Shown here piece by piece: positions 20,092 through 39,895 of a stretch of DNA of 64,000 nt (positions are counted from its first letter, which is position 1; the number at the start of each line of letters is the position of its first letter). The position numbers and the translations under genes are program-made. Source of the DNA: Cyanobium sp. ATX 6F1 (GTDB lineage: Bacteria; Cyanobacteriota; Cyanobacteriia; PCC-6307; Cyanobiaceae); contig NZ_JAGQCS010000002.1 of the NCBI RefSeq assembly GCF_024346315.1, forward strand, positions 310,001-374,000, written 5' to 3'. Under the pieces are notes generated by a model, which was given only the letters and a program-made list of their open reading frames with translations, ran no database searches and had not been told where the DNA came from.

Positions 20092-20152
20092 CGCCCTTAA
20101 TGCCGAGATGGAACGATGCTAGGTGGCTCCAACCGAGAAGCGGTCGAAGCGC

Positions 20153-23511: not shown

Positions 23512-23611
23512 TTACGGGCGACGGATCGGGCCGGTGGTTTGAGGGTCAGAATTGAACCAGCTGATCTCATTCGTGAGGCGAGGATCGCCTTGAAGTGATG
23601 ACCCCGTTACG
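23512..23611 (-). pseudogene. 3' remnant of a paralogue of the secreted gene at 25452-25907
   Basis: The minus strand encodes GDPRLTNEISW...TTGPIRRP and a stop at 23512-23514. This matches the intact gene's C-terminus (GDPRVVNESSW...TTGPIRRQ). DNA similarity extends with a small deletion to about 23611, inside the start region of the LprI-like gene. It is a decayed copy left by duplication. Confidence 0.7.
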
Positions 23612-24080
23612 CCCACCGGCACGGACGCCGCTGCAACAAGCCTTCTGGTCCATGGGCAGGTGGCCGCTGCCAGTTCTGCCGCTGCTTTTGGCAGGGGTCT
23701 TCAGCACTCTCGGCGCCCAGGCGATACCTCCGCCACCGGAGTCCTTCGATGGGGAGACGATCCGCTGTCAGCGCGCGGGCAGCGCCGCCACGGTGCTGAT
23801 CTGTCGGGATGCCGAACTGACGGCCATCGACGCGCAGCTGCGCCAGGCCTTTCGCCACCTGCGGGACGATGCTTCCCTCAAGCAGCCAGAGCGCGAGGCC
23901 CTGATGGAGGATCAGCGCCGCTGGGTGGAAACCATGGACCAATGCTGGAGGGCTCAGGAGAACATGCGGTCCTGTGTGAAGGCCAGCCAGCAGCAACGGT
24001 TGCGTCAGTTGGAGTCGTTGGCGATGCAACGGCGGTTGATGCCAGGAACCAATGATGGAGGCAAGGGGTGTCATGGGTGA
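23598..24080 (+). CDS. LprI/DUF1311-family secreted protein
   Basis: A 160-residue protein with an N-terminal signal segment (PVLPLLLAGVFSTLGAQA). The mature domain has IRCQRAGSAATVLICRDAEL, IDAQLRQAFRHL, LMEDQRRWVETMDQCW and a final CVKASQQQRLRQLE. The four Cys and the DQRRWxxxxDxC block match the lysozyme-inhibitor LprI N-terminal/DUF1311 family. A role at the cell surface is likely; lysozyme inhibition is only a family-level possibility. The first codons overlap the pseudogene remnant on the other strand. Confidence 0.75.
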   Translation: MTPLRPPARTPLQQAFWSMGRWPLPVLPLLLAGVFSTLGAQAIPPPPESFDGETIRCQRAGSAATVLICRDAELTAIDAQLRQAFRHLRDDASLKQPEREALMEDQRRWVETMDQCWRAQENMRSCVKASQQQRLRQLESLAMQRRLMPGTNDGGKGCHG

Positions 24081-24450
24081 CCAGGCCACCAGAGTGGTCT
24101 GCGCGTTTGCCGCCATCACGAGCCTGATCATCGTCTGTGCTCGCTCGCCCGGATTGCAAGGCATCGATCTTCCCTTTCTGGCCTTGGTTGTTGCACCCTT
24201 TCTGCTGCTTGGCTTGATGGCTGGAAGCGTTCGTGAGCGCAGCTCGGACGCAAGAGTTCTTTTCATCCTCACACTGTTTCTTGCGCTGGGGGGTACGTTC
24301 CTTCTGGCTCTCCATGCCCCAATCCCAAACACAGGGCCCGAGCCTGGGCTAGCGCAAAGCGTGGTAATGATTGGCGTACCGTTGCTGCAGTTGATCGCCG
24401 TGATCCTGCTAGGTTTGATCCTCCGCTTGAGGAGAATGTTGGCTTCATAA
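24073..24450 (+). CDS. small four-helix membrane protein
   Basis: A 125-residue hydrophobic protein with about four transmembrane helices: VVCAFAAITSLIIVCA, LALVVAPFLLLGLMAG, VLFILTLFLALGGTFLLAL and VPLLQLIAVILLGLIL. The ATG at 24073 overlaps the end of the LprI-like gene by 8 bp, which suggests translational coupling. I do not recognise the family. A nine-T run follows its stop at 24462-24470. Confidence 0.65.
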   Translation: MGDQATRVVCAFAAITSLIIVCARSPGLQGIDLPFLALVVAPFLLLGLMAGSVRERSSDARVLFILTLFLALGGTFLLALHAPIPNTGPEPGLAQSVVMIGVPLLQLIAVILLGLILRLRRMLAS

Positions 24451-24652
24451 AATGGCTTTCATTTTTTTTTGCGTCAGAATGTTGAGAGGTGAGTTCATTC
24501 CGAAGTGATTCAGTCATTGCCCGGACAACTTCGTCTCGTCGGGAGGGCTCATTGACCATCAGCCAAGGAGATGTACCAGTTCCACAACCGAGAACCGGAC
24601 CGAAACCAAGAAGGGGTACGATGCAAAAATAATGTCAATACAAAGAGTGTTG

Positions 24653-25234
24653 ATGAAACGACTCCAGACCCTCACTGCCTCTCTGCTGAGTCTTGCTTCT
24701 GTGGCCCTCGCTGCACCAGCGCTGGCCGACACTGTCGATGCTCGCTGCGATGTTTTTCCCGCAGGTGACGACAAGGCCACCTCCTCGGGGCTGTGTACCT
24801 TTTCCCAGCGCCAGGGCTTCGTGAGCATTCAGCTCAAGGGCGGCCAGACGATCGAGCTCAAGCCCAACGAGAGCACGCCCAACGCCTTCTTTGATGAGCG
24901 TGGTGAGCCTGCCAAGCGCGAGATGCTGGAGGCCAATCGCGGACAGGTTTACCGGCTGGAAAAACAGTCGATCTTCGTCTTCTGGGATACGGCCCCCTAC
25001 TCCAAGGGCGCCCCCAGCGGCAGCTCCGCTCCCGTCAGCGGGGCCTCCATGGCAAAACCGCCCGAGATTGTCACCCTCCTGTTGGGCATCCGTCAGGTGA
25101 AATTTGACGGCGCCTGTCGGGTCAATTTCAACAAGGCCGGGAAGACCTTCAGCAAAACCTCTGCCTGTGACGCGGCCCAGGTGGGTGTCGCGGAGGACGC
25201 CATTCGGCGCTATTTCCGTGAACAGGGGCTCTGA
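24653..25234 (+). CDS. secreted protein of unknown function
   Basis: A 193-residue protein with a signal peptide (LTASLLSLASVALAAPALA). The mature domain has paired Cys in VDARCDVFPAG and SSGLCTFSQRQGFVSIQL, and LLLGIRQVKFDGACRVNFN later. A Ser/Pro/Gly-rich linker lies near residues 130-145. The first half resembles short beta-sandwich periplasmic proteins, but I do not recognise a family. The ATG at 24653 is preferred over one seven codons upstream. Confidence 0.7.
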   Translation: MKRLQTLTASLLSLASVALAAPALADTVDARCDVFPAGDDKATSSGLCTFSQRQGFVSIQLKGGQTIELKPNESTPNAFFDERGEPAKREMLEANRGQVYRLEKQSIFVFWDTAPYSKGAPSGSSAPVSGASMAKPPEIVTLLLGIRQVKFDGACRVNFNKAGKTFSKTSACDAAQVGVAEDAIRRYFREQGL

Positions 25235-25407
25235 AGCTCTGACCCATTGATGATGAGCTCAGCCGCGACCATATCAGGACCGTTCAACGGGCCAGGGTTC
25301 GTTTCGCCGTTCTGAAAGCTCTTACAAATTGGGAACTTCCTTTCGCTCCGAACCGTGTTCAGACGGTGGCCCAAAAGATCAGCTGACGACTGGAATGAGC
25401 ACGGAGA

Positions 25408-25430
25408 CAGCAGGAGCCAAGCCCCTGCTG
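25408..25430. terminator. hairpin between convergent secreted-protein genes
   Basis: CAGCAGG (25408-25414) and CCTGCTG (25424-25430) form a 7 bp stem with a 9-base loop in the 217 bp spacer between the 24653-25234 and 25452-25907 genes. No T-run follows. The rest of the spacer shows nothing recognisable. Confidence 0.35.
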
Positions 25431-25451
25431 ATCATTGGAATCAACCCTTGA

Positions 25452-25907
25452 TCACTGGCGTCGAATAGGGCCGGTGGTTTTTGCGTCAAAATCAGTCCAA
25501 CTGCTCTCATTCACGACGCGGGGATCGCCTTGAATCGAATACGTGATGAAGCCCGTTTTGAACACCAGGGCACCATCACTGAGCTTACTGGCCACAGACT
25601 TGCCGTTCACCGTTACCTTGTTCTTGTTGTCGATGCGAATTGTGGCCACGGTCAGTCCTTCGCTGCTTTTGGCGATCCATTTGCCGGCGTAGGTGGAAGT
25701 GGCCGTGGTGGTGGTGCCAAATCCAGCTCTGGCGTTTTCGGCTTTGGTCTTGTTGATATCGCAGCCCTTCAGTTCGGTGACTTGCGTGCAGCCAGAGCGA
25801 TCAAGCTTCTTGGCATAGGCGGGATCAATGGCCTGGGAGGAAAGCGGCCACATCAACAGGATCGTGGTGGCGGCTGTGGCGGCAATAACGTGCTTGCTCT
25901 GCTTCAC
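25452..25907 (-). CDS. small secreted protein with a decayed paralogue nearby
   Basis: A 151-residue protein. The GTG at 25907 is chosen because AAAGGAG lies 8 bases upstream and a signal peptide follows (VIAATAATTILLMWPLSSQA). Mature motifs are CTQVTELKGCDINKTK, with two Cys, and a beta-rich C-terminal domain with STYAGKWIAKSSEGLTVATI and GFITYSIQGDPRVVN. The last domain looks like a small barrel that reports a substrate change (KVTVNGKSVASKL), but the function is unknown. A 100 bp remnant of a paralogue lies at 23512-23611. Confidence 0.75.
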   Translation of the reverse strand: MKQSKHVIAATAATTILLMWPLSSQAIDPAYAKKLDRSGCTQVTELKGCDINKTKAENARAGFGTTTTATSTYAGKWIAKSSEGLTVATIRIDNKNKVTVNGKSVASKLSDGALVFKTGFITYSIQGDPRVVNESSWTDFDAKTTGPIRRQ

Positions 25908-26117
25908 TTTGAACACTCCTTTGGGTTGTTGAAAGAAATTGAACTGAGGCCACAGAAAGTCTAGCCAACTTCCTGCGGCAAGGCGCCACATGAGCCCTGC
26001 CAACAGGTCTAAAGTTTAGCCTTTATTCGGCCACCATCTAGTTGCAGCGGCTCGGCCGCGAACCAGACCTTGGCCATCGCGATGGCCACCTACTGATGAT
26101 TGAGAAGCCATCAATCC

Positions 26118-26903
26118 ATGCGCCTCGACCGACGCAGCGATACCTCCGCAACCCAGAACTTCCCTACGATTGCTGTGAATAGAGAGCATCGTCTTTTGGC
26201 AAGCCCCAATCCTTCATGGATCTCCCCCCTGCCGCTCGTGTTGGTCCCCCTGGCCATCTGGGGAACCATGGGCCTCTCACAAGGCCCCGCCTGGAGCGCA
26301 ACGGAGAAACCTCCACAACCGGTGCTCCTGAACTCACGGCCGCCCCTGCTCGTTCCTGATCCCCGCCTGGAAGCGGCCTTACGCCGTGAGCTGTTTCCGG
26401 TGCGCGTGGAGGATGGACAAGGGCACGGACCCGATCCAGGTTCAAGTGAGTGGAAGCAGGCAGAGGCTTTTAAGCAGAGCAGGGCATGTGCGCAGGTGGG
26501 CTCCCTTCGCTATGCCTACGATCGCGTGGATCTCAATGGTGACGGCAGCCCGGAGATCGTGGCCACCGTTCAAGGCCCCTACACCTGCGGCACCGGTGGC
26601 TGCAACTTCTATGTCTTTCGCAATGGGCTGAAGGGCCCCACCTTGGTCTCGCGAATGACCCTGTTCAGGCCACCCCTGATCGTGAGTGAACAGAAGCATC
26701 ACGGCTGGAAGGATTTGATCGTGAACGTGCGTCAGGATGCCGGCCATGGCGGCTATGCCGTTCTCTCGTTTGATGGCAGGGGCTATCCCAGCAATCCGAG
26801 TGCGCCCCCAGCCCAACCCCTGCGTCATCCCCTCAAAGGAACGGCGCTGCTGGTGATGAAGCCCGAACCGGATCAGGGACTTCCTTTGCCCTGTGCTCCT
26901 TAG
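26118..26903 (+). CDS. secreted protein with FG-GAP-like calcium-binding motif
   Basis: A 261-residue protein with an N-terminal membrane or signal segment (PLPLVLVPLAIWGTMGLSQG). The C-terminal domain begins YDRVDLNGDGSPEIVATVQG, a DxNxDG calcium-loop motif as in FG-GAP repeats. It continues with PYTCGTGGCNFYVF, a Cys pair. Similar DLNGDG...GPYxCGTGGCN proteins occur as secreted proteins in other bacteria. Its end overlaps the stop of the convergent glycosyltransferase by 4 bp. An ATG and a TTG further upstream are open alternatives. Confidence 0.7.
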   Translation: MRLDRRSDTSATQNFPTIAVNREHRLLASPNPSWISPLPLVLVPLAIWGTMGLSQGPAWSATEKPPQPVLLNSRPPLLVPDPRLEAALRRELFPVRVEDGQGHGPDPGSSEWKQAEAFKQSRACAQVGSLRYAYDRVDLNGDGSPEIVATVQGPYTCGTGGCNFYVFRNGLKGPTLVSRMTLFRPPLIVSEQKHHGWKDLIVNVRQDAGHGGYAVLSFDGRGYPSNPSAPPAQPLRHPLKGTALLVMKPEPDQGLPLPCAP

Positions 26904-28525
26904 GTTTTTTTGGGGCGGCTCAGAAGGCAGCGCTGGAGCCTCCCATGGATCTCCTCATCGTCGGGCGTCTGCTCCAGCACCCGGCTCAGCCAGCGCACGG
27001 CCTCAGCCCACTGTCCGGCTTCTTCAGACAGTTCTGCCAGCCCCTGCCAACAAAACCTGTCGGCCCCGGGCCAGTAAAGGTGCCGGAGATAGGGCTGCTG
27101 GCAGGCAGGATGCCAGGCTCCCAGCGGACCCGGCCCCGTGGTCGCGCGGTGCTGGTCCACCAGGTTGACTCCATGGGTGAGCCAGTGCCGGGCCCCCTCG
27201 GGCCTGTTCAGCCTGCGCAGACCGATGGCCAGCATGCAGATCGAAGGCAGGTGGTTCGGTTCGATGGAGAGCAATTCCAACAGAAGGGCCGCCACGCTGG
27301 GGAAATGGCCGAGCTCGTAGTGCCGACTTGCCTCCCGATACAGCCGCGCCGTTCGGTAATGATCGGCGTCAGGCTGGTGAAGGGACGCGATCTCCCGCGG
27401 TAACTGTTGGATCACCTCCAGCGCCTGCTGCGAATCTCCCATTGCCGTGCTGGCGTGGAGGAGAGCCTCATCAAGCATCGGCAACATCGGCCGAAACTTC
27501 TGACAGAACGCTTCGAGACGCTGATCTCTCTGGGATGGATTCAATCCCGCTTGGGCGAGCAGCGCATCAAGTTGTGGCTGCTCCTGTTGGAGCAAGGCCA
27601 ACGCTCGTGTGCCCAACTCCGCCCCATAGTCAAAGCTGAGTTGTTCGAGGCTCTGCTGGAACCGCTCCCCATCGTAGAGAAGGTAACTGCAGCGCAGGCT
27701 GTTCATCAGCATGGGTGGCGGCGGGTCACCATCCGCCGCGGGCACAAAGGGGGCAGCGTTCAACACCAGACCATCGGCGGGCAGGGGGTCGGAGCAACTG
27801 GTGGGAGGGTCGCCGTTGCCTGGATCTTCGAAGACGTCCTTGTAGCGATGCCCCACCTGAAGGCTCTGATCCAGCCGGCATTCGAAACCTGCCAGACCCG
27901 CCAGCATCGACAGGAAGCGATCTTCATGCCCCCAGCCCTGCAGAAAATCCGGGAACCCGCCCAACTGCTCATACACGCTGCGGCGAATCGCAAAGAATCC
28001 GCCGTTGACGAAGGGCACAACCCAGTTCACCAGGGGGTCGCTCTGAATCGGCATCCAGGCCGGTTGCTGATGACAGAGTCGACGACTGGTGTAGACGGAA
28101 CCGGCGGTGGTGTTGCCGTTACGGCTGTCATAGCAATCGATGCTGAGCAGATGGCAACCGGGGTCCGTGAAATGGCGCTCCATCTGGATCCAGAGATCGC
28201 TCTGGGGAAAGTCCAGATGCGCATCGATGAAGACCAGCACCTCGCCGCGGCAACCCACGGAGGCGAACCTTCGCCCCCTCGACACCCCCAAACTATGGTT
28301 GAGTCGCCTCAGGCGGATGATTCCCTGCTGCCGCAGCTCTAGCCAGGGCCCGGCATCGAGAAAGGCACTGCTGGAGTCGTTGGATCCGTCATCCAGCAAG
28401 GAGCACTCCAGACCACCCGTTGGTGGTGTGAGCGCCATCAATTGTTCGAGGGTGCTCTGAAGCTGGGATCCCTCGTTACGACTGCCGATCACCACACTGA
28501 TGAGCGGCTTGGTGGAGGGATCCAT
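26900..28525 (-). CDS. GT2 glycosyltransferase with GalNAc-T-like core and helical-repeat tail
   Basis: A 541-residue cytosolic protein without signal or membrane segment. The GT-A core starts LISVVIGSRNEG, has LLDDGSNDSS and the metal-binding region VLVFIDAHLDF (DxH). The block FVNGGFFAIRRSVYEQLGGF, then GWGHEDRFLSML and LQVGHRYKD, resemble the GGLFAI, WGGEN and VGHxFR motifs of polypeptide GalNAc-transferases and Glyco_transf_7C. From about residue 270 it is helical with TPR-like pairs (RTARLYREASRHYELGHF, WQGLAELSEEAGQWAEAVRW). It starts 5 bp after the tpsA stop, so tpsA is its most likely substrate; this is inference from order and repeat chemistry. Confidence 0.8.
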   Translation of the reverse strand: MDPSTKPLISVVIGSRNEGSQLQSTLEQLMALTPPTGGLECSLLDDGSNDSSSAFLDAGPWLELRQQGIIRLRRLNHSLGVSRGRRFASVGCRGEVLVFIDAHLDFPQSDLWIQMERHFTDPGCHLLSIDCYDSRNGNTTAGSVYTSRRLCHQQPAWMPIQSDPLVNWVVPFVNGGFFAIRRSVYEQLGGFPDFLQGWGHEDRFLSMLAGLAGFECRLDQSLQVGHRYKDVFEDPGNGDPPTSCSDPLPADGLVLNAAPFVPAADGDPPPPMLMNSLRCSYLLYDGERFQQSLEQLSFDYGAELGTRALALLQQEQPQLDALLAQAGLNPSQRDQRLEAFCQKFRPMLPMLDEALLHASTAMGDSQQALEVIQQLPREIASLHQPDADHYRTARLYREASRHYELGHFPSVAALLLELLSIEPNHLPSICMLAIGLRRLNRPEGARHWLTHGVNLVDQHRATTGPGPLGAWHPACQQPYLRHLYWPGADRFCWQGLAELSEEAGQWAEAVRWLSRVLEQTPDDEEIHGRLQRCLLSRPKKT

Positions 28526-28530
28526 CGGCT

Positions 28531-31500
28531 CTAGGGCTGTCCCACCGTGAGCACCACCGAAGCACGGCCGCCGTTGGCGGTGGGGACAGAGAGACGTACA
28601 TCCAGAGGCAGCGACACCCGCCTCAGATCACTGATTGAAATCGTCGCGCTTCGGGGCACATAGCTCACCCCTGGGGGTAAGGGAGCGCCATCGGCCAGTG
28701 TGAGGCGACCCTGAATCAGCGCCGGCTGCGGTCCCAGCTTCGCCAGAATGTGGGCGGGAATTCTGTAACTGAGCGGCACGTTCAACCCGGTGGGTTTGGC
28801 CTGATTGAGGGCGGCCTGCACATTGATCGGCTGCAGGATCGGCTTGCTATCGAGCGCACTGCCGGCGCTGCCTGGCACGCGGATCGGCGCGAGCGTTGGG
28901 GCCGGTGTCAGCTGGGGGGCGGCTGTCGGCGCTGGTGTCGGCTGCGCCTGGGGCACCCGGATCGGAGCGAGCGTTGGGGCCGGTGTCAGCTGGGGAGCGG
29001 CCGTCGGCGCCGGCGTCGGCTGCGCCTGCGGCACCCGGATCGGAGCCAGCGTTGGCGCTGGCGTCAGCTGGGGGGCGGCTGTCGGCGCTGGTGTCGGCTG
29101 CGCCTGAGGCACCCGGATCGGTGCCAGCGTTGGGGCCGGTGTCAGCTGGGGGGCGGCTGTCGGCGCTGGTGTCGGCTGCGCCTGGGGCACCCGGATCGGT
29201 GCCAGCGTTGGGGCCGGTGTCAGCTGGGGAGCGGCCGTCGGCGCCGGCGTCGGCTGCGCCTGCGGCACCCGGATCGGAGCCAGCGTTGGCGCTGGCGTCA
29301 GCTGGGGGGCCGCCGTCGGCGCTGGTGTCGGCTGCGCCTGGGGCACCCGGATCGGAGCGAGCGTTGGGACCGGTTTCAGCTGAGGCGAGGCCGTCGGTGC
29401 CGCCGTGGGCTGGGCCTGCGGCACGCGGATCGGTGCCAGCGTTGGGGCCGGTGTCAGCTGGGGGGCGGCTGTCGGTGCTGGTGTCGGCTGCGCCTGGGGC
29501 ACCCGGATCGGAGCCAGCGTTGGGGCCGGGGTCAGCTGGGGGGCGGCTGTCGGCGCTGGTGTCGGCTGCGCCTGAGGCACCCGGATCGGCGCGAGCGTTG
29601 GCGCTGGTGTCAGCTGGGGGGCGGCTGTCGGCGCTGGTGTCGGCTGCGCCTGGGGCACCCGGATCGGAGCCAGCGTTGGGGCCGTTGGCAGCTTGGGAGC
29701 AGCCGTCGGGGCGGACGTTCGTTGCGGCGCCGCCGTCGGAGGCAGAGTCGGGGCGGCCGTCGGCGTGGCGACCATCCGCGGCGGCACCGCGGTCGGCTGG
29801 AGCTGACCATTGGGCGCCAGGGTCGGGACGGCCGTCGGGGCCGCCGTTCGCTGCGGCGCCGCCGTCGGAGGCAGGGTCGGTGCGGCCGTCGGGGTGATGA
29901 CCGTCCGCGGCGGCACCGCGGTCGGCTGGAGCTGACCATTGGGCGCCAGGGTCGGCGCGGCCGTCGGGGCCGCCGTTCGCTGCGGCGCCGCCGTTGGAGG
30001 CAGGGTCGGTGCGGCCGTCGGGGTGATGACCGTCCGCGGCGGCACCGCGGTCGGCTGGAGCTGACCATTGGGCGCCAGGGTCGGCACCGCCGTCGGGGCG
30101 GACGTTCGCTGCGGCGCCGCCGTCGGAGGCAGAGTCGGGGCGGCCGTGGGCGTGACGACCATCCGCGGCGGCACCGCGGTCGGCTGGAGCTGACCCTTGG
30201 GCGCCAGCGTCGGGGCCGCCGTCGGGGCGGACGTTCGCTGCGGCGCCGCCGTCGGAGGCAGAGTCGGGGCGGCCGTGGGCGTGACGACCATCCGCGGCGG
30301 CACCGCGGTCGGCTGGAGCTGACCATTGGGCGCCAGGGTCGGCGCCGCCGTCGGGGCGGTCGTTCGCTGCGGCGCCGCCGTTGGAGGCAGAGTCGGGGCG
30401 GCCGTCGGCGTGATGACCGTCCGCGGCGGCACCGCGGTCGGCTGGAGCTGACCATTGGGCACCAGCGTCGGGGCCGCCGTCGGGGCGGTCGTTCGCTGCG
30501 GCGCCGCCGTTGGAGGCAGGGTCGGTGCGGCCGTCGGCGTGATGACCGACCGCGGCGGCACCGCGGTCGGCTGGAGCTGACCACTGGGCGCCAGGGTCGG
30601 CGCCGCCGTCGGGGCGGACGTTCGCTGCGGCGCCGCCGTCGGAGGCAGGGTCGGGGCGGCCGTCGGCGTGATGACCGTCCGCGGCGGCACCGCGGTCGGC
30701 TGGAGCTGACCATTGGGCGCCAGCGTCGGGGCCGCCGTCGGGGCGGTCGTCGGCGCTGGTGTCGGCTGCGCCTGAGGCACCCGGATCGGCGCCAGCGTTG
30801 GGGCCGGTGTCAGCTGGGGGGCGGCTGTCGGCGCTGGTGTCGGCTGCGCCTGGGGCACCCGGATCGGAGCCAGCGTTGGGGCCGGGGTCAGCTGGGGGGC
30901 CGCCGTCGGTGCTGGCGTCGGCTGCGCCTGGGGCACCCGGATCGGAGCCAGCGTTGGGGCCGGGGTCAGCTGGGGGGCCGCCGTCGGCGCTGGTGTCGGC
31001 TGCGCCTGGGGCACCCGGATCGGAGCGAGCGTTGGGGCTGGTGTCAGCTGGGGTGCGGCCGTCGGCGCTGGCGTCGGCTGGACTGGCGGCACGCGGATCG
31101 GTGCCAGCGTCGGGGCCGGTGTCAGCTGGGGGGCCGCCGTCGGCGCTGGCGTCGGCTGCGCCTGGGGCACCCGGATCGGAGCCAGCGTTGGGGCCGGGGT
31201 CAGCTGGGGGGCCGCCGTCGGCGCTGGTGTCGGCTGCGCCTGGGGCACCCGGATCGGAGCAAGCGTTGGCGCTGGTGTCAGCTGGGGGGCGGCTGTGGGT
31301 GCTGGTGTCGGCTGCGCCTGCGGCACCAGGATCGGTGCCAGCGTTGGCGCCGGTGTCAGCTGAGGTGCGGCTGTCGGGGCCGCCGTCGGCTGGGCTTGCG
31401 GAACGCGGATCGGCGCCAAGGTGGGTACCAAGGGGGCCGTTGGCCGTGTCCAGGTGGAGGTCGCCGAACCCTGAGGGATCGTGGCCTGACCACTCAGGGG

Positions 31501-33291
31501 GAGGACCTGTTGGAACTGCTGCTGGGTCGGAATTCCAGGCCTGGTGACCTGTTGATAAAGGGTCGGACTGACGACCTGAGTCGGCGGGTTCTTGGGTGTG
31601 GTCTGGGGATTGAAACCCGAGGCCGATGTGACGTAATACTGACCACCCACCATGTAAACAACATGGGTATCTGGCACGCCCCCCGAAGTCGTGAATTGAG
31701 GATGGCCTTGACTATCGGTGGTGAAGTGGCCTCTCCAGTAGGTCACCTGGCCTGTTACTGGATTGACGTAGCGACAGCCAGGGCATGGAGATGATCCAGC
31801 ATATGAACCATTGCTTCCATGATAATAATAGCCTTCTTTCACTTCAAATGACTGAGTGATTCCAGGGTCTGGCGGCCTTGTGAACCCAGGATTTGTCTGC
31901 CCTTGATTGATCGTAATTCCTCCAGGAATCGCCACCGTCTCAGTAACGGAAGTTCCCGGAATCGTCCTGGACCAAGCGATGACACCTGATTGCGGATCGT
32001 AGGCAGCCTTGACTCCATTGCTGCCCACAACCGACGAGCCACCAGTACCGATCGCGACCTTGAGGGGGCCGCTGCCGAACTGGTCAGTGAAATCTGGATT
32101 GGCCAGGGCAGCGGTGCTCGGCTGAATGGTGAGCGTTCCAGCTGTGATCTTTCCCGAAACCTGATCGACTTGAACACCCTCGGCGTTCATCAAGGCAGCT
32201 CCGGCCGGGAGCTGCAGTCCCAACACGTCCGACTCCAGCATCTCCTGATCAGAAGCCTGGCCTTTGGCGTTGAATGTGCGTAGCAACCGCTTGAGTGGTC
32301 CGCCGTTGGTGGCCAACCTGTGTCCTTCCTCCACCGCCTCGATGCCGTCATAGACGTAGAAGTCGGAGGCCCGGAAGGAGGGCGAGAAGAACAAGCCGTC
32401 AAATTGGCCTGCCCGGGCACCGGCGGTGCCGATCACGAACCGCTCCAGGTCGTAGGAGGCCTGGAGGGCAAGCGAAGCCGATTGCGGTGAGGGTTGGCCG
32501 CTGATCTGGGCAAAGCCAAAGCCCGTGGGCAGGCCCGCACCTGCGGTGAAGGGATTAATCGGTAGGCCCGTGGTGCCGATCCAGAGGGTGCCCTCGGGTT
32601 CAATGCCGTTGTAGGGGAGATTCACCCCGTCCGTGCCGGTGCTGGCCGATCGGAAACCGCGGCTGAAGAGGCTGGCGCTGGGAGCGATGGTCACCGAGGG
32701 GGCCACCAGGCCGATGCCACCCCCGTTGGTGGATTCGATCCGCCCTTCAACAAGGATCGGACCATCTCCGTTGCTCATCTGAATGCTGATCAGCGGCGCA
32801 TTCAATCCATTGCCGTAACTGACTCCAGCCATGAACTTGTCCAGGCTGTCCGGGAGCAGCGAACCGGTGCTCAGCAGAAGGCTCGGTACCGAGATCAACG
32901 CCGTGCGACCCACGCTGATGCCTTGATTGTTGAGCAGAACCAGTGGGTTGGTGGCCCGCAGGATGCCGTTGATCTGGCTGGCTATTCCTCCGGAGCGCAC
33001 GTAGTTGAGCACCGCTCCGCCATTGCGGAAGTCGACGGTGTCGCCCTGGCCAATGTTGAACGTGCCCCAGCTGAAGACGGCCCGCCCTGGGGTGGTGACG
33101 GTCAAGGTGCGGCCCGTCTGATTCACCGTTCCGGCAGCTCCTCGCTCCTGCAATGCACCCGTGGGCAATTGCTGGGCTGTGGCCGCCTGCAGCAGCGGAT
33201 TGCCCTGGGCCAGGGCGAGCAGAATCAGGCCAGATTTCGAGTGCCGCAGCAGCAGCTGTCTCAGGTTGGCAGAGGAGGTGGGATTTCTCAT
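28531..33291 (-). CDS. TpsA-type exoprotein with mucin-like Pro/Thr/Ala repeats
   Basis: A 1586-residue two-partner-secretion exoprotein. After a signal peptide (GLILLALAQGNPLLQAATAQ) comes a TPS/FHA-type domain at about 45-260, with SWGTFNIGQGDTVDF, NYVRSGGIASQINGIL and LVLLNNQGISVG. Residues 260-620 are a further beta-rich region with a CPGC motif. Residues about 624-1470 are repeats in three blocks: 26-residue units, eight 43-residue units, then 26-residue units again, all Pro/Thr/Ala-rich. A 115-residue beta-like C-terminal domain (LSYRIPAHILAKLGPQP) closes it. It lies 18 bp after tpsB, its expected outer-membrane pore, and 5 bp before a GT2 gene. Confidence 0.88.
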   Translation of the reverse strand: MRNPTSSANLRQLLLRHSKSGLILLALAQGNPLLQAATAQQLPTGALQERGAAGTVNQTGRTLTVTTPGRAVFSWGTFNIGQGDTVDFRNGGAVLNYVRSGGIASQINGILRATNPLVLLNNQGISVGRTALISVPSLLLSTGSLLPDSLDKFMAGVSYGNGLNAPLISIQMSNGDGPILVEGRIESTNGGGIGLVAPSVTIAPSASLFSRGFRSASTGTDGVNLPYNGIEPEGTLWIGTTGLPINPFTAGAGLPTGFGFAQISGQPSPQSASLALQASYDLERFVIGTAGARAGQFDGLFFSPSFRASDFYVYDGIEAVEEGHRLATNGGPLKRLLRTFNAKGQASDQEMLESDVLGLQLPAGAALMNAEGVQVDQVSGKITAGTLTIQPSTAALANPDFTDQFGSGPLKVAIGTGGSSVVGSNGVKAAYDPQSGVIAWSRTIPGTSVTETVAIPGGITINQGQTNPGFTRPPDPGITQSFEVKEGYYYHGSNGSYAGSSPCPGCRYVNPVTGQVTYWRGHFTTDSQGHPQFTTSGGVPDTHVVYMVGGQYYVTSASGFNPQTTPKNPPTQVVSPTLYQQVTRPGIPTQQQFQQVLPLSGQATIPQGSATSTWTRPTAPLVPTLAPIRVPQAQPTAAPTAAPQLTPAPTLAPILVPQAQPTPAPTAAPQLTPAPTLAPIRVPQAQPTPAPTAAPQLTPAPTLAPIRVPQAQPTPAPTAAPQLTPAPTLAPIRVPPVQPTPAPTAAPQLTPAPTLAPIRVPQAQPTPAPTAAPQLTPAPTLAPIRVPQAQPTPAPTAAPQLTPAPTLAPIRVPQAQPTPAPTAAPQLTPAPTLAPIRVPQAQPTPAPTTAPTAAPTLAPNGQLQPTAVPPRTVITPTAAPTLPPTAAPQRTSAPTAAPTLAPSGQLQPTAVPPRSVITPTAAPTLPPTAAPQRTTAPTAAPTLVPNGQLQPTAVPPRTVITPTAAPTLPPTAAPQRTTAPTAAPTLAPNGQLQPTAVPPRMVVTPTAAPTLPPTAAPQRTSAPTAAPTLAPKGQLQPTAVPPRMVVTPTAAPTLPPTAAPQRTSAPTAVPTLAPNGQLQPTAVPPRTVITPTAAPTLPPTAAPQRTAAPTAAPTLAPNGQLQPTAVPPRTVITPTAAPTLPPTAAPQRTAAPTAVPTLAPNGQLQPTAVPPRMVATPTAAPTLPPTAAPQRTSAPTAAPKLPTAPTLAPIRVPQAQPTPAPTAAPQLTPAPTLAPIRVPQAQPTPAPTAAPQLTPAPTLAPIRVPQAQPTPAPTAAPQLTPAPTLAPIRVPQAQPTAAPTASPQLKPVPTLAPIRVPQAQPTPAPTAAPQLTPAPTLAPIRVPQAQPTPAPTAAPQLTPAPTLAPIRVPQAQPTPAPTAAPQLTPAPTLAPIRVPQAQPTPAPTAAPQLTPAPTLAPIRVPQAQPTPAPTAAPQLTPAPTLAPIRVPQAQPTPAPTAAPQLTPAPTLAPIRVPGSAGSALDSKPILQPINVQAALNQAKPTGLNVPLSYRIPAHILAKLGPQPALIQGRLTLADGAPLPPGVSYVPRSATISISDLRRVSLPLDVRLSVPTANGGRASVVLTVGQP
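28879..29690. repeat. tandem 78 bp repeats, distal block of tpsA
   Basis: About ten and a half copies of a 78 bp unit encode 26-residue units with core APIRVPQAQPTPAPTAAP. One unit near 29365-29440 is divergent (PTASPQLKPVP). Copies differ mainly at synonymous positions. Confidence 0.9.
29690..30745. repeat. tandem 129 bp repeats, central block of tpsA
   Basis: Eight copies of a 129 bp unit encode 43-residue units with the core LAPNGQLQPTAVPPR and LPPTAAPQRT. Phase is constant; the marker CGCGGCGGCACCGCGGTCGG recurs every 129 bp. Substitutions at the N/S/K and T/S/M positions distinguish units. Confidence 0.9.
30745..31422. repeat. tandem 78 bp repeats, proximal block of tpsA
   Basis: Nine copies of the same 26-residue unit as the distal block (eight full, the last truncated into the 43-residue block). 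Variants include APILVP and RVPPVQ. The identical unit on both sides of the 129 bp block gives an A-B-A design. Confidence 0.9.
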
Positions 33292-33309
33292 GGTTGCTTG
33301 ATCAGTTCC

Positions 33310-35064
33310 TCAGAACCAGAGCCGCAAAGAGCCCCAGACCCTCAGCGACTTGTTGAATCCGTCGGCATCGGTGTCGTTGAGCGATGCGGGGTTGTTGCCG
33401 ATGGGGAAGGCAAGCTTGAGCGAGGCCAGCCATTCACCGGGGGTGCCCAGGTCGGCGCCGATGCCGGTGCCAGCCAGCCCATAGGAATTCGGCTGAAGGG
33501 CCCCGGGGAAGGGGTCGTTCCAGCGCCAGATGTAGCCCCCATCGAGGAAGGCCACGAAAGACAATTGGCTTGTGGCCTTGTAGATGAGCTCCAGCTGACC
33601 ACTGAAGCCGCTGTCGCCAGGGGCTTCGCCTGGGGGATAGGCGCGAACGCCGTTCGGGTAACCCAGGGACATTTTCTCGGCACCATCGAGGTTGTTGAAG
33701 CCCTTCTGGGCCTGAACGAACAGCTTGCCTTGCCAACGGGGGGAGAACACCTGATAGCGGCTGTACACCAGCAAGACCTTGTTGAACACACCATCGGTGC
33801 CGGCAGTGAATTGGTCGAGCAGAAAGTCATCGCTGTTGCCGGAGCGATCTAAATTGCCGAAGCTGTATTGCAGGAAGGCGGTATTGAGGCCCGTGCCCAG
33901 GATGGAATCCTGCTTCTGGGCAATCAATGACAGCCGGCCGACCTGACTGTCTTTATTGCGGATCTCCACTTCCTGAACCTTGTCGACATAGGTATTGGCT
34001 TCTGCGCTCAAGCCAACCCAAAGGGATTGCATTGGCCGGCGCCAGAGGGGTTGCTGCAGTCCGATGCGCAGGTTTGCGGTGTAACCATTGATGTCGGAGC
34101 TGTAGAGCTCATCAAGCAACCTGTAGTTGTTGTAGTTTCCAAAGGCATTGAGTTGCAGGCCATCTGGAGAGATCGGTGCCTGAAAGGCGAGGGAACCCAC
34201 GAGATTGCCCGTGTTGTAACTATTCAGCCACCACTGGCCATTGGCTGTGAGTTGGTCTCCTCGGCCCATCCAGTTGGCCGCGGTGAGGGTGAGATCGACA
34301 TTGGTTGAGCCCAGGAATCGGTTAATTTCATTGCCCACATGGAGCTCACCACTGCTGCGATCGCCGTCCTCAATGCTCAGCAGCACATCGGTGAGGCCGG
34401 CGCCGGTTCCCTTGCGCAGGGTGGAGCGCACCCTCACCCCTGCCATGTCGTTGAGCTTGAGCAGGGCGGAGGTCAGCTTGTCGATGCGAAACAGGGAGCC
34501 CTTCGGCAGGCTGGCCCGCACCATGGCCTCAGCGATGCCGTTCTTGAGGTGATGGCGCAGGTTGCCGTCCACGGAAACCTCGCCCATGTGGGCCTCCACC
34601 ACCGTGATCACCAGCAAGCCGTCACCACCAGCGGAAGGGTTGATCGTGACGAGCGCCAGCAGGCTGTGGCGCCGGTAGGTGTCGCGAATCGAGGCGCGCA
34701 GCTGTTCAAGGTCATCGAGGCTGATCGACCGGTTCAAGTAGGTGGCCGCCAGGCTCTCCAGCTCGCTCTTCCAGGGCACCGTCACCCCATCGAGGCGCAC
34801 GGCGCTGTAGCGCCACTGGGCCTGCTGGTCGGTGGGTGCGACCACAGGCTCCTGGGGAACCGTCGGTTGTTTCTCCTGTTGCCTCAGGCGCTCGAGCTGC
34901 TGGCGGTTCTGCTCATCCAGCTGCTGGCGGAGGCGTTGGTCGCGCTCATAACGCTGAATCCCCCCGGAGGGCAGGGATTGGGCGGTGGCAGGGCCCATGC
35001 CGCTCAGGGCTGCGATGGTGATCGCGCAACCAATGGGCAGTGCAAAGAGAGGCGTGCGCAGCAA
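33310..35064 (-). CDS. TpsB/ShlB-type two-partner-secretion outer-membrane transporter
   Basis: A 584-residue Omp85-superfamily pore. A signal peptide is followed by a Gln/Arg-rich helix at about 35-70, as in FhaC/ShlB. A POTRA region lies at about 85-235 (VRLDGVTVPW, RRHSLLALVTINPSAGGDGL, VRVRSTLRKGTGAGLTDVLL). A beta-barrel follows with the conserved loop-6 region NGVRAYPPGEAPGDSG (VRxYP in place of VRGY) and a C-terminal Phe (LRLWF). The start is TTG; no better start is seen. It should export the TpsA protein encoded 18 bp downstream. Confidence 0.9.
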   Translation of the reverse strand: MLRTPLFALPIGCAITIAALSGMGPATAQSLPSGGIQRYERDQRLRQQLDEQNRQQLERLRQQEKQPTVPQEPVVAPTDQQAQWRYSAVRLDGVTVPWKSELESLAATYLNRSISLDDLEQLRASIRDTYRRHSLLALVTINPSAGGDGLLVITVVEAHMGEVSVDGNLRHHLKNGIAEAMVRASLPKGSLFRIDKLTSALLKLNDMAGVRVRSTLRKGTGAGLTDVLLSIEDGDRSSGELHVGNEINRFLGSTNVDLTLTAANWMGRGDQLTANGQWWLNSYNTGNLVGSLAFQAPISPDGLQLNAFGNYNNYRLLDELYSSDINGYTANLRIGLQQPLWRRPMQSLWVGLSAEANTYVDKVQEVEIRNKDSQVGRLSLIAQKQDSILGTGLNTAFLQYSFGNLDRSGNSDDFLLDQFTAGTDGVFNKVLLVYSRYQVFSPRWQGKLFVQAQKGFNNLDGAEKMSLGYPNGVRAYPPGEAPGDSGFSGQLELIYKATSQLSFVAFLDGGYIWRWNDPFPGALQPNSYGLAGTGIGADLGTPGEWLASLKLAFPIGNNPASLNDTDADGFNKSLRVWGSLRLWF

Positions 35065-35139: not shown

Positions 35140-35436
35140 TCAGTTCTCGAGCACCCGCAGCTCCTGCACCTTTCCGGAATTGAACACCAGGCAGCGCAAT
35201 TTCTCATTGGTGGAGCCGCCACGCAAGCCGATCGCCTTGACGATCACCTCGGAGTTGGCCTGTGAGAATTCGCTGCGAACCACCTTGAGGTCGCGCACAT
35301 TGCCGCCGTATTGACTATTGATCGCCATCATGCAGGCCGATTTGGCCGTGCTGGATACTTCCGCTGCCCAGCCGTCTGGGGTGTAAAGGGCAAGGCCCAT
35401 ACCAGCAAGCAAAGCAAGGCCGAGACTGGCTTTCAT
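35140..35436 (-). CDS. small secreted protein, Cys-pair domain family
   Basis: A 98-residue protein with a signal peptide (MKASLGLALLAGMGLALYTP). The mature domain is ACMMAINSQYGGNVRDLKVV...ANSEVIVKAIGL, then KLRCLVFNSGKVQEL. The ACxxAV...VxVxV...WxC-like pattern resembles the C-terminal domain of the protein at 38021-38782 (ACLAAVAKTTG, then WTCTSD). It lies 75 bp upstream of tpsB in the same direction and might be the first gene of that transcript. Confidence 0.7.
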   Translation of the reverse strand: MKASLGLALLAGMGLALYTPDGWAAEVSSTAKSACMMAINSQYGGNVRDLKVVRSEFSQANSEVIVKAIGLRGGSTNEKLRCLVFNSGKVQELRVLEN

Positions 35437-36122
35437 GTTGACGCCAAGCTGGAGGGGCTCACCGTACTAAGCGGAGGAGGGGTGGGCAGCAAGGGAGTGT
35501 CAGTTCATCGCTGCAACTCCGGCGACGCCGGCGCTGGCGGTGACTCGCTCAGATCCGTTGCCAAGGAATGGGTGGTCGGATCTGCGACGCTGGCCTCAGA
35601 ACCACCGGCCAACCGAGAGCCGAGTGGGGTTGGTGGCCTCAAGATGAAGGAAAGAAGCGAACCCGCACCGTGGGGGCGCCATTGCCGAGAGCGAGCTGAA
35701 CTCGCAAGGGCTACACCTATGGGGTGGCGACCAGATCGGAGACAGTTCCTTCCCCTACCGGCAGCAGCCCCGCACCAACAGCCGCGGGGCTGTGCGCACC
35801 TCAGGTGGGCGCGATCAATCGATCACCGACGCCGACCCGAGGAAGTAGTTGTGATCGGCTCAATAGATGGCCGTTGAACGCCCGAGCCGCCGGTTCTCCG
35901 GTCGTCGGCCTTGAGCCTGGCTTGACAACCACCAGCGCAATTCGCGCAGCCACAGGCATGATTGCCCCCATTTGGGCAGCTTTCCTGGCAGAGGATGTGG
36001 GTGACAGACGGGCATTGGGGCATATATGCATCGGGTCTGAGATCTGGGGCTGCTGGGTCGCACCTCAACCCTGTCGAACTCAGACCCCAATGCCCGCCGG
36101 AAGAACCTGGTGGCAGTCACAA
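35437..36122. other. 686 bp without a convincing gene
   Basis: No frame here has coding character throughout. A 66-codon stretch without a start, 35648-35848 on the plus strand, ends ...SGGRDQSITDADPRK and includes SQGLHLWGGDQIGDSSFPYR; it could be a gene fragment. CAGCCCCGC (35765-35773) and GCGGGGCTG (35784-35792) form a perfect 9 bp hairpin inside it. Confidence 0.5.
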
Positions 36123-36893
36123 CTAAACAGGTTGTCCGTTGTCCAGCTGCTTAACCCTGCGAAGAAGATAGAGTCCATAGAAGAATCCAGGTGCAGCGAG
36201 GAGTAGGGGAGCAAGAATGCTCAGACCTACGGAAGACTGCGCTCCAGTGCCTGCGGCCTTGTGCCCTGAGGATATCACCATGAAAACGGCAAAGTCCCAT
36301 AGGGCGTGCGTAAGGATCACCGGGTAGAGCGATTGAGTACGCACACGGATGGCAGCGAACAGAATCCCACTGAAGCTCGCTGCGGCTGCTTGGATCAAGC
36401 CTGCCTGAAGTTCACCGGTGACAAAAACATTCAGCGCGTGAACCCCACCGAACACCAATGACGAGAACCAGACGGCTTTCCATACAGAGAAACGGTCTGT
36501 CAAGCCTTTGAAGATGATTCCACGGAACATCCATTCCTCAGAAATGCCAACCAGCAAGGTGTTCAGCGCTACCCAGAATGTCGTGACCAGACCCGGAAGT
36601 CCAAGCACGAGGGCAAGGGAGAAGAAGAGCACAATCATCAGGCCAGGCAACCACAGGATCCGCAAGGCGAATCCCCAATCCGGGGTACGGAACCCAATCT
36701 CTTTCAGGCCAAAGATCACCGTGACCAGACAAAGAAACCCGATAGCGGCAACGAATTGCCAGGCCAATCCGCGACTGACCATGTCGTTCAAGGAGGAGCT
36801 GCCTCCACCGCGACTGGCACCACCTCCGATGGTGACCATCAGCCATCCAACAAAGACTGCCAACGCGATCCAGAGAGTCTTAGTGTTTTTCAT
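36123..36893 (-). CDS. CPBP-family intramembrane metalloprotease
   Basis: A 256-residue membrane protein of the CPBP/Abi family with about seven helices. The motifs are ISEEWMFRGIIFKG (EExxxR), FGGVHALNVF (His in the second motif) and LTHALWDFAVF (third motif). These residues form the glutamate protease site of CAAX-protease-like enzymes. In cyanobacteria and plastids such proteins act in membrane-protein processing or stress. Codon use is less GC-rich than in the neighbouring core genes. It has no operon partner here. Confidence 0.85.
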   Translation of the reverse strand: MKNTKTLWIALAVFVGWLMVTIGGGASRGGGSSSLNDMVSRGLAWQFVAAIGFLCLVTVIFGLKEIGFRTPDWGFALRILWLPGLMIVLFFSLALVLGLPGLVTTFWVALNTLLVGISEEWMFRGIIFKGLTDRFSVWKAVWFSSLVFGGVHALNVFVTGELQAGLIQAAAASFSGILFAAIRVRTQSLYPVILTHALWDFAVFMVISSGHKAAGTGAQSSVGLSILAPLLLAAPGFFYGLYLLRRVKQLDNGQPV

Positions 36894-37476
36894 TCCAGGT
36901 CATTGAGGTGATTGTGTCGTGGTTTGCCATCAAGCCCCATAGCGCACTTGCGGCGATCATGGGATGGCAGCAAGGCCGTCAGCATGTTGCCACTACATTC
37001 ATCCACCATTCAAGCAGTACAGCGTCATGCAACAGCAAAGTTCGCTCTATTCGGCGAGCCTTGATGTCGATGCGACAACCCATGGCTGAGCATCAAGGGG
37101 TCATTCCTGCTCCGCCCAATAGTGGCATCGAGACCATGAACGAGGGGGTGGATCCTTGCGCTGATGGCATCTATACTTCAGCCACTACGCATCGTTGCGC
37201 CATCCAGGAGCAGCCAGGAATTTGGCCGCCCAATGGAGGAGGCGACTATGGTGAGGCTGTGCCACGGAGAGAGCTGCACCCTGGTGAGACCGGAGAAGTA
37301 TTGGGACTCAGAAGTAATCGTATAATTGAATCCTTCCTCTGTTTGGGCGTGTGATTGAATGACCCACTCCCAGGCTTTCAAGGCTACGCCAAGGCCCCAC
37401 TCCGATTGCGCCATCCTTGCAGATGCAAGCGACTCTTTGATCAATTAATGCTAAACTCCTGCACTACCTTTTGACT
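36894..37476. other. 583 bp without a convincing gene
   Basis: An AT-richer spacer. Two open frames, plus 36908-37354 and minus 37178-37444, have no recognisable domain, signal or ribosome-binding site, so they are left out. No repeat or tRNA is seen. Confidence 0.5.
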
Positions 37477-37938
37477 ATGCAAGCAAGCAACAAAGTCTTC
37501 AAGTCGTTGGCGATGCTTTCACTGGCATGCCTCGCCGGTGTTGTCCCATCTGCCATGGCGGCCCCCCAGAAGATCCAGCAATCTCAAGAAGTCAAGATGC
37601 CCTGCACCCTGAGCTGGGGCCCAAAGGATCGAAACGTCCTGGAGGCGGAGTGCAAAATCTACTGGACAAAGGGTCAGGGCACCTCGATTATTGTTTCTGG
37701 AACAGTAATCAAGTATCCTTCGCCAACGGCCATGCGCAAGGATCTTTACTTTGGCATTCTGATCTTCCCCGACACCAAAACAGCACTGATGACGTCGATG
37801 GGTATCTTTGAGCTGGAAGATGGGCCTGTTGAGCTTGCTGACAATCCGCTTGATCTTCAGAAGCTCAAGGATCGTCAGTACGTTCGCTGGACCAATGGCA
37901 AGCATCGCCTTGTTCTTCACCCACGCCCTGCTTCCTGA
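37477..37938 (+). CDS. small secreted protein of unknown function
   Basis: A 153-residue protein with a signal peptide (SLAMLSLACLAGVVPSAMA). The mature beta-rich domain has MPCTLSWGPKDRNVLEAECK with a Cys pair and LYFGILIFPDTKTAL. The ATG at 37477 is preferred over a TTG two codons upstream. I do not recognise the family. It lies 82 bp upstream of another secreted-protein gene in the same direction and may be co-transcribed. Confidence 0.7.
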   Translation: MQASNKVFKSLAMLSLACLAGVVPSAMAAPQKIQQSQEVKMPCTLSWGPKDRNVLEAECKIYWTKGQGTSIIVSGTVIKYPSPTAMRKDLYFGILIFPDTKTALMTSMGIFELEDGPVELADNPLDLQKLKDRQYVRWTNGKHRLVLHPRPAS

Positions 37939-38020
37939 TTTTTTGGCTTCACTTGCTTTACAGCCGCTTCCCTTGCCATACTCCTCTCATCTATTCACCA
38001 TCTGATTTCCGGCTCCAAAA

Positions 38021-38782
38021 ATGAACCTCTCAGTATCGTTTCGTCGTAGCCTTGCAATGGCCGGCATTCTCTTCATGGGCAGCCTGGGAATGGCAGCCGG
38101 GAATGCTTTCGCCAAGGTTCCTCAATTCCACTATGTCTGCCCTGGCGGGATTGATGTGCACGCCGATCGTGGTGGGCCCGTTTGGATCAATGGCAGAGAG
38201 GCCATGGTTCAGGAGTTCAGTCCTACCTATTACGAAGCCAAGGGCCCGGGCACCACGATTTCAATCAGCAAGAATTCCGGTGATTCCCTCTATGTCTCTT
38301 ACACCCGTTCCAATGGAGCCCATGGGATCTGCAGCGCCGTTCCAGGCTCTGGGATGAGCTCATCCCCTTCCAGCTCAGGACAGTCCGCCAAAGTTGCTCG
38401 GCTTTCGGATGGCACCTATCAGGTGCATGTTGGCGGGAGTTGCCGAGTGTACTACAACGCCATGGGACGCCGCACCATCCAAACACCGGCCTGTACCCCG
38501 AGCCTCGTCCAGCAGGCCGATGATTCCATGGCTCAGAACCGGCCTCCATCGTCACAACCAACGATGTCGACCGTCGCCGCGGAAGATGCCTGTCTGGCAG
38601 CCGTCGCCAAGACGACGGGAGTGTCGCAGAACCGTCTCAGCATCCTCGATGTGATGACTGCCGAAGCCGGTATCGGCGTGAAGATTCGGGTACCAGGCGC
38701 CCAGGCCCCCTGGACCTGCACCAGCGATCCCAGAGGTCGGGTACAGGGTGTGATGTACACCGGCTCGGAGGGAAGACTCTGA
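38021..38782 (+). CDS. secreted multi-domain protein with Cys-pair C-terminal domain
   Basis: A 253-residue protein with a signal peptide (SLAMAGILFMGSLGMAAGNA). Three parts are visible. The N-terminal domain runs to about 110 with FHYVCPGGIDVHADRGGPVW. A Ser/Pro linker and a short middle domain follow (LSDGTYQVHVGGSCRVYYN). The C-terminal domain, about 188-253, has EDACLAAVAKTTGVSQNRL and APWTCTSDPRGRVQGVMY. The last domain resembles the small protein at 35140-35436. Such ACxxAV/WxC domains occur in secreted proteins of other bacteria. The function is unknown. Confidence 0.7.
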   Translation: MNLSVSFRRSLAMAGILFMGSLGMAAGNAFAKVPQFHYVCPGGIDVHADRGGPVWINGREAMVQEFSPTYYEAKGPGTTISISKNSGDSLYVSYTRSNGAHGICSAVPGSGMSSSPSSSGQSAKVARLSDGTYQVHVGGSCRVYYNAMGRRTIQTPACTPSLVQQADDSMAQNRPPSSQPTMSTVAAEDACLAAVAKTTGVSQNRLSILDVMTAEAGIGVKIRVPGAQAPWTCTSDPRGRVQGVMYTGSEGRL

Positions 38783-38881
38783 CTGATCATCCACCCATGA
38801 GCTGATCACAAACGAGCACTTGAATTTTGCTGGTATGCCGGCAGTTGATCAAGCGCTCTGCAGGATTGGCCATGGCAGCAA

Positions 38882-39094
38882 TCAACGGCGCTTGTCGTCC
38901 TTACGCCACAACAGCCCCGCGATCCCCGTCACCACGCCCGCTCCACCCAGAAAGAAACCGATCGGGATCAGAGGAAAAGCCTCCCGGACGATGCCATCGG
39001 CATCGACCCGGACCCCGATCAGTCGGTAGGCCACGGCACAGGCCAAGGCACCAACAATCAGCAGTAAGGAGAGGCGAATGAAGGTTCGCTTCAT
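38882..39094 (-). CDS. DUF3955-like small membrane protein
   Basis: A 70-residue protein with two transmembrane helices (LSLLLIVGALACAVAYRLI and PIGFFLGGAGVVTGIAGLL) separated by VRVDADGIVREAFPLI. The helix-VDxDGxxxExFxLIP-helix layout is typical of the DUF3955 family. It ends in a basic tail, WRKDDKRR. It stands alone between two secreted-protein genes of opposite orientation. Confidence 0.65.
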   Translation of the reverse strand: MKRTFIRLSLLLIVGALACAVAYRLIGVRVDADGIVREAFPLIPIGFFLGGAGVVTGIAGLLWRKDDKRR

Positions 39095-39223
39095 GACGAT
39101 CCAGCCAATTCAGATCCAGAGCCTACTGTCTCGTACGGAACGCAACCACAAAAAGCGGCTTTACATTGGCCGGATTCCTGGGAGGCTGGTCGTCATGTTC
39201 CGATCAGCCTCGAACCTGCTCCT

Positions 39224-39781: not shown

Positions 39782-39895
39782 GTGTGAACTTATGGGGGAG
39801 TTGAGGATACCGAAGAGGCAAGCACAATGGTTGCCTATCGAGTGGCGGCCTTTTACCAGCCACCAGCCTAGGCTCCGAGCCGCTTCCCCACCCCG

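Follow-up and report, generated by a model that had tools for sequence, protein, structure and literature searches.

Which role does a glycosyltransferase play whose gene lies directly behind a two-partner secretion (TPS) pair, and is the long Pro/Thr repeat domain of the secreted partner its acceptor? The question is raised by an operon of Cyanobium sp. ATX 6F1 (genome of 2.96 Mb) that is located in a stretch of 64,000 nucleotides (contig 2, positions 310001-374000), which is called the window here. The genes tpsB and tpsA and a gene for a GT2 protein with a TPR tail (GT in the following) are arranged head-to-tail on the minus strand with gaps of 18 bp and then 5 bp (Table 1), and this contiguity is as the first-pass annotation had given it. 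A TpsB with POTRA domain and ShlB-type barrel adjoins a TpsA with a TPS domain, as in two-partner secretion (type Vb) systems, and, as in systems of the HMW/Etp type, a glycosyltransferase gene directly adjoins both, in an order that is kept in three other genomes. The TpsB orthologues in three further genomes are 61-67% identical. The GT gene and a convergent gene with a weak FG-GAP match (window 26100-26903) overlap at their ends by 4 bp, and the surroundings of the operon (window 23595-26003 and 35140-39916) encode many small proteins that are predicted to be secreted and have few or no Pfam matches. In addition, an Exo_endo_phos gene (window 20123-20989) is found 6 kb downstream of the GT gene, and Cyanobium T1B-Tous has a 77% identical gene about 5 kb downstream of its own GT gene, hinting at a common insertion neighbourhood.

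Table 1. Features of the tpsB-tpsA-GT operon, with positions in the window.
Feature	Position	Strand	Basis
tpsB, outer-membrane TPS transporter, 584 aa, TTG start	33310..35064	-	POTRA_2 1.5e-7, ShlB 1.1e-12 (Pfam)
tpsA, secreted exoprotein, 1586 aa	28531..33291	-	ORF and Pfam
TPS secretion domain, TpsA residues 39-201	32689..33177	-	PF05860 6.8e-14; adhes_NPXG 3.6e-12
Pro/Thr repeat domain (888 aa; residues 598-1485 of TpsA), proposed as acceptor region	28837..31500	-	composition
Second 78-bp (26-aa) tandem array, ~8.7 copies	30740..31418	-	
129-bp (43-aa) tandem array, ~8.1 copies, between both 78-bp arrays	29702..30750	-	
78-bp (26-aa) tandem array, ~10.7 copies	28874..29709	-	
TpsA C-terminal domain after the repeats, conserved in orthologues	28531..28836	-	
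GT gene, 541 aa, GT-A domain and helical/TPR tail; proposed to O-glycosylate Thr in the repeats of TpsA	26900..28525	-	
GT-A catalytic domain, residues 1-230	27836..28525	-	Pfam, profile, fold search
DxH metal motif D101-A102-H103	28217..28225	-	invariant, six orthologues
xED motif W198-G-H-E-D202	27920..27934	-	D202 invariant, six orthologues; meaning from PMC7185993
C-terminal metal histidine H226 (VGHRYK)	27848..27850	-	GT27-type third ligand by alignment
All-helical tail, residues 271-535, with TPR 492-530	26921..27715	-	Pfam and AlphaFold2

The repeat stretch of TpsA had been estimated at about 850 Pro/Thr/Ala residues; the stretch itself is present and turned out to be slightly longer. 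It contains 248 prolines, 153 threonines, and only 13 serines (fractions: P 0.28, A 0.22, T 0.17, S 0.01). TpsA residues 1-620 have matches in exactly four genomes with a TPS-type GT, including that of the window, among the 400 genomes of the family. The repeat sequences differ between these TPS-type orthologues and are all Pro/Thr-rich. The C-terminal domain has a weak counterpart in TpsA2, a paralogue from this genome (27% over 81 aa, E 1.3e-6), and the structure model of the N-terminal region was too poor for use (pLDDT 56.6). In the deposited draft assemblies of Synechococcus BO 8801 (L042:5129-8860) and Aphanothece saxicola (L066/L043) the repeat arrays contain one frameshift each, while the C-terminal domain is preserved in the other reading frame. 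These frameshifts may be assembly errors or real on/off variation, between which the assemblies do not distinguish. Around the repeat threonines proline favours odd positions and is scarce at -2 and +2. Within the window's repeats, it precedes the threonines at position -1 in 0.63 and follows at +3 in 0.68 of the distinct contexts, compared with 0.28 in shuffled sequences. This spacing matches the acceptor preference of the polypeptide GalNAc-transferases (GalNAc-Ts) for proline at -3, -1, +1, and +3 (PMC4245494), but the match can be suggestive only because alternating prolines are common in Pro/Thr linkers. The repeats of another carrier, G077, have proline at -3 and +1 instead of -1 and +3, and any Pro/Thr repeat will to some extent have proline at alternate positions.

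Among the 400 genomes of the family, five besides that of the window (G245, G257, G220, G199, and G077) encode a GT orthologue that aligns over most or all of the protein. The carriers include Cyanobium sp. T1B-Tous, Synechococcus sp. BO 8801, Aphanothece saxicola, and a Vulcanococcus sp. (MAG); the genome of the window belongs to the same family as T1B-Tous, BO 8801, and the Vulcanococcus MAG. Apart from the window, a sample of 390 genomes of the class contained weaker GT2 matches only, which rules out a wide spread across the Cyanobacteria. A scan of 84,980 species with narrow peptide patterns recovered only four of these same loci, and plasmids and viral contigs contained no GT match, so that carriage by plasmids or viruses is ruled out as well. 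Weak matches with about 25-40% identity (L002, L003, and others) were discarded as ordinary GT2 proteins. The tree of the GT orthologues consists of two clades, and the number of independent associations between GT and repeats can be put at two to three from these sequences.

All six GT orthologues adjoin an exoprotein with Pro/Thr repeats and its exporter, which bears out the expected co-occurrence. The first-pass annotation had paired the enzyme with TPS exoproteins, and this holds for four of the six while the other two are located beside a type I (ABC/HlyD) system. A system restricted to TPS is thereby ruled out. In G245, G257, and G220 the order is tpsB-tpsA-GT, with the TpsA of G220 split across two contig ends. 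In G199, two ABC genes and hlyD are followed by the GT gene, which overlaps hlyD by 29 bp, and a divergent gene encodes a 788-aa protein with a Pro/Thr region of 387 aa. In G077 the GT gene is divergent from the gene for a 3020-aa protein (Pro/Thr region of 993 aa), which is followed by hlyD and two ABC genes. Chance adjacency is ruled out by the kept gene order together with the co-occurrence. A classical autotransporter gene is found a few kb from the type I locus of G199 (L044:13434-16847), and a similar but split one near that of G287 (L112:2293-5425), thus near loci with and without the GT.

The type I loci of G215, G287, G123, and G275 serve as natural controls. Their exporters are 49-52% identical to those of G199, and their giant substrates share the N-terminal motif of the G199 substrate (RLLxLxNLHxGDRE-like), so that exporter and motif are orthologous to those of the GT-linked type I loci. 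They differ in having neither the GT, which was not found in these four genomes in the search of the 400 genomes of the family, nor a long Pro/Thr domain: 0, 0, 105, and 0 residues of their substrates are in Pro/Thr-rich windows, compared with 387 and 993 in the substrates accompanied by the GT. The genome of the window provides a further control with a paralogous TPS pair on contig 3 (L069:6711-11319), whose TpsB is 40% identical and whose TpsA contains Gly/Pro repeats (GEIGLMPTRPSRPGGGPAVIPPGGGG); this pair has no Pro/Thr domain and no GT beside it. Thus, a long Pro/Thr domain is present at six of the six loci with the GT and at none of the five without (Fisher p 0.002, which is descriptive only, given that the loci are related and that the trees support two to three independent changes). 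Among the 353 ORFs of the 26 fetched loci, Pro/Thr segments of at least 198 aa were found only in GT-linked exoproteins; Pro/Thr linkers are also present without the GT, but these are short. Because the exporter varies between TPS and type I and the GT-less loci do not have a long Pro/Thr domain, the GT therefore tracks the repeat domain and not the secretion route.

The same comparison bears on the site of modification. The GT could act elsewhere on the exoprotein, on Asn, on Ser/Thr of a β-helix, or on another residue, and the Pro/Thr domain would then be a plain spacer. HMW1C and EtpC act on Asn and the BAHTs on β-helix loops (PMC8151025), and it is the composition of the repeats, not a mapped site, that marks them as the target. 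However, TPS and type I substrates have unrelated N-terminal regions, which leaves the Pro/Thr domain as the common feature, and the GT-less type I substrates have retained the exporter and the N-terminal motif without that domain. We therefore regard a site outside the repeats as improbable.

Pfam assigns TPR (residues 492-530) and Glycos_transf_2 (residues 10-188) to the GT, the latter at 49.9 bits compared with a curated cut-off of 23.3, and Glycos_transf_2 matches in all six orthologues, which places the enzyme in GT2. With Glycos_transf_2 and a GT-A fold it does not belong with the HMW1C-like GT41 enzymes, which are GT-B. The best solved relatives by sequence are polypeptide GalNAc-Ts (T10, with 5.5e-9 when the GT sequence was used alone and 1.1e-13 with a profile of six sequences). 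The fold comparison leads to the same group: polypeptide GalNAc-Ts account for 50 of the 50 PDB matches listed by Foldseek (best E 2.3e-10), although they are over-represented in the PDB. Over the full length the TM-scores stay low, which is probably due to the model sharing no more than the GT-A domain with the GalNAc-Ts. A polysaccharide-synthase fold as the nearest group is ruled out by the profile search and Foldseek. The AlphaFold2 model (mean pLDDT 79.8, built on five sequences only) describes a soluble, two-part protein and is helical over about residues 271-535, in agreement with the TPR-like tail that had been recognised in the sequence.

The motifs IDAHLDF, NGGFFAIRR, GWGHEDRF, and VGHRYK were found as annotated, and their key residues are invariant across the six orthologues. 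D101-A-H103 and H226 align with the DxH motif and the third metal ligand of the GalNAc-Ts, corresponding in GALNT1 to the metal ligands D209, H211, and H344 (PMC4202792). Both GT27 and GT60 have DxH in place of DxD and act on Ser/Thr of polypeptides (PMC7185993). Among the GT2-type matches of the fetched loci that cover the motif, only this family and two proteins of one other genus have DxH, and the rest have DxD. The metal site and an expected acceptor of Pro-flanked Thr are thus what the GT and the GT27 enzymes would have in common. Unlike these, it is a soluble bacterial protein with a TPR/helical tail in place of the ricin-type lectin domain. In addition, the xED Asp is the base of inverting GT-A enzymes and variable in retaining ones (PMC7185993), and the aligned GalNAc-T2, T12, and T10 have GGEN or GGEQ where the GT has WGHED with D202 invariant in all orthologues, so that the GT has a metal site of the GT27 type together with a base of the inverting type. 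The invariant D202 suggests that the reaction is inverting, while GT27 enzymes are retaining. The likeness to GalNAc-Ts proposed earlier thus applies to the metal site but not to the xED Asp, and because this Asp is present and invariant, GalNAc-T-like should not be equated with alpha-GalNAc transfer. A plain GalNAc-T was set aside given the presence of D202 and the absence of the lectin domain.

These features also bear on whether the acceptor is a protein at all. GT2 is mostly a polysaccharide family, the weak NCBIfam matches of the GT are exopolysaccharide enzymes, and enzymes with the xED Asp (GT7, chondroitin polymerases) use sugar acceptors (PMC7185993). The GT might accordingly make or extend a polysaccharide or a lipid-linked glycan and owe its place beside the exoprotein gene only to the co-regulation of surface genes. 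However, no polysaccharide gene cluster was recognised beside the GT in the six loci, its adjacency to the exoprotein persists across a change of secretion system, the DxH motif and the fold place it with polypeptide transferases, and the model is that of a soluble two-part protein. This makes a sugar acceptor slightly less probable still than a site outside the repeats.

The least probable explanation, which we think very unlikely, is that a single ancient cassette was horizontally transferred in which the GT is nonfunctional or nonessential and merely hitch-hikes. The distribution is indeed patchy (2/42, 1/16, and 1/25 genomes within the genera) with few independent events, and one GT copy, that of the single-contig genome G077, is split by a frameshift near the N-terminus (L045:9180-9290). 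Against this, the GT is found in two different secretion cassettes with different gene orders, and orthologues of 41-58% identity show no change in its catalytic and structural residues, from which it follows that selection has acted on it.

Our main reading is that the GT is a cytosolic O-glycosyltransferase dedicated to the Pro/Thr repeat domains of large exported surface proteins, and we assign it a probability of roughly three in four. It is directly supported by the gene order, the co-occurrence, the likeness in fold and metal site, and the GT-less exporter loci that do not have a long Pro/Thr domain. Catalysis, sugar, modified site, timing, and surface role are what we infer. The GT would modify the repeat threonines of TpsA while this is unfolded in the cytosol, where HMW1C, EtpC, and the BAHT systems also work (PMC8151025, PMC3983070), and the TPR-like tail would probably guide or hold the acceptor. 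The glycosylated TpsA would then use Sec to cross the inner membrane and TpsB to cross the outer one, resulting in a long, stiff, densely O-glycosylated, and protease-resistant stalk or coat, and in the relatives the same type of enzyme would be paired with a type I exporter. A mode of action like that of HMW1C and EtpC, performed by an unrelated GT-A enzyme, seems to be the best explanation. In Streptococcus mutans, a Thr-rich adhesin is guarded from proteolysis by a GT-A enzyme whose gene adjoins its own (PMC5856776), which suggests protease protection as the likely benefit for TpsA.

Compared with known systems, HMW1A/B/C of Haemophilus influenzae and EtpBAC of enterotoxigenic E. coli likewise combine a TPS pair with a co-encoded cytosolic glycosyltransferase, and EtpBAC has the same tpsB-tpsA-GT order. 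Their third partner is a GT-B enzyme of GT41/NGT, whereas here it is a GT-A enzyme (GT2/GT27-like) with a TPR tail, and their acceptor is Asn in NxS/T sequons instead of the repeat Thr expected here. The GT-A gene of the S. mutans cnm-pgfS pair is similarly located directly downstream of, and co-transcribed with, the gene for an adhesin with a Thr-rich region. However, PgfS is membrane-bound, works together with PgfM1/E/M2, and modifies several proteins, and its substrate is anchored to a Gram-positive wall (PMC5856776). The BAHT heptosyltransferases of AIDA-I, Ag43, and TibA are also co-encoded enzymes for cytosolic Ser/Thr O-glycosylation of a type V passenger, but they belong to an unrelated enzyme family, serve classical autotransporters, and modify β-helix loops rather than Pro/Thr repeats. 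A 2021 review names NGTs and BAHTs as the only two mechanisms of type V protein glycosylation (PMC8151025). In the open-access literature we found no description of such a GT with a Pro/Thr exoprotein, and a search for GT2 peptide transferases with TPR (SunS) had no usable result.

The nearest relatives of the GT with DxH outside this group belong to one genus of another cyanobacterial order (G449, L074:7540-10678, and G655, L119:674-3256). In both, the DxH GT2 gene is located directly behind a gene whose product contains (EPSP)n Pro/Ser repeats, and the cluster of G449 also holds Baseplate_J and Tail_P2_I genes of the contractile-injection type. If this pattern is general, DxH GT2 enzymes would follow Pro-rich Ser/Thr domains across several export systems. 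It seems somewhat more probable than its contrary, and less secure than the main reading, that these enzymes form a bacterial GT-A family whose metal site is of the GT27 type and whose base is of the inverting type, and that the family is specialised in repeat domains of Pro/Thr and perhaps also of Pro/Ser. It would be found in TPS and type I loci and possibly in contractile-injection loci. This would be a bacterial equivalent of mucin-type O-glycosylation, tied to the acceptor domain and not to the secretion system, and a third cytosolic mechanism of type V glycosylation beside NGTs and BAHTs, in which the core of the enzyme is closest to the enzymes that initiate mucin glycosylation in animals. 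Bacteria would then have a new way to mucin-like surface proteins via two unrelated secretion routes. It would bear on the origin of the polypeptide GalNAc-transferases and on the split between inverting and retaining enzymes in the clade of GT7, chondroitin polymerases, GT27, and GT60 (PMC7185993). The GT would also be of use for the production of mucin-like polypeptides in bacteria, being soluble and coming with a natural repeat acceptor, and its presence would predict which cyanobacteria bear glycosylated surface stalks.
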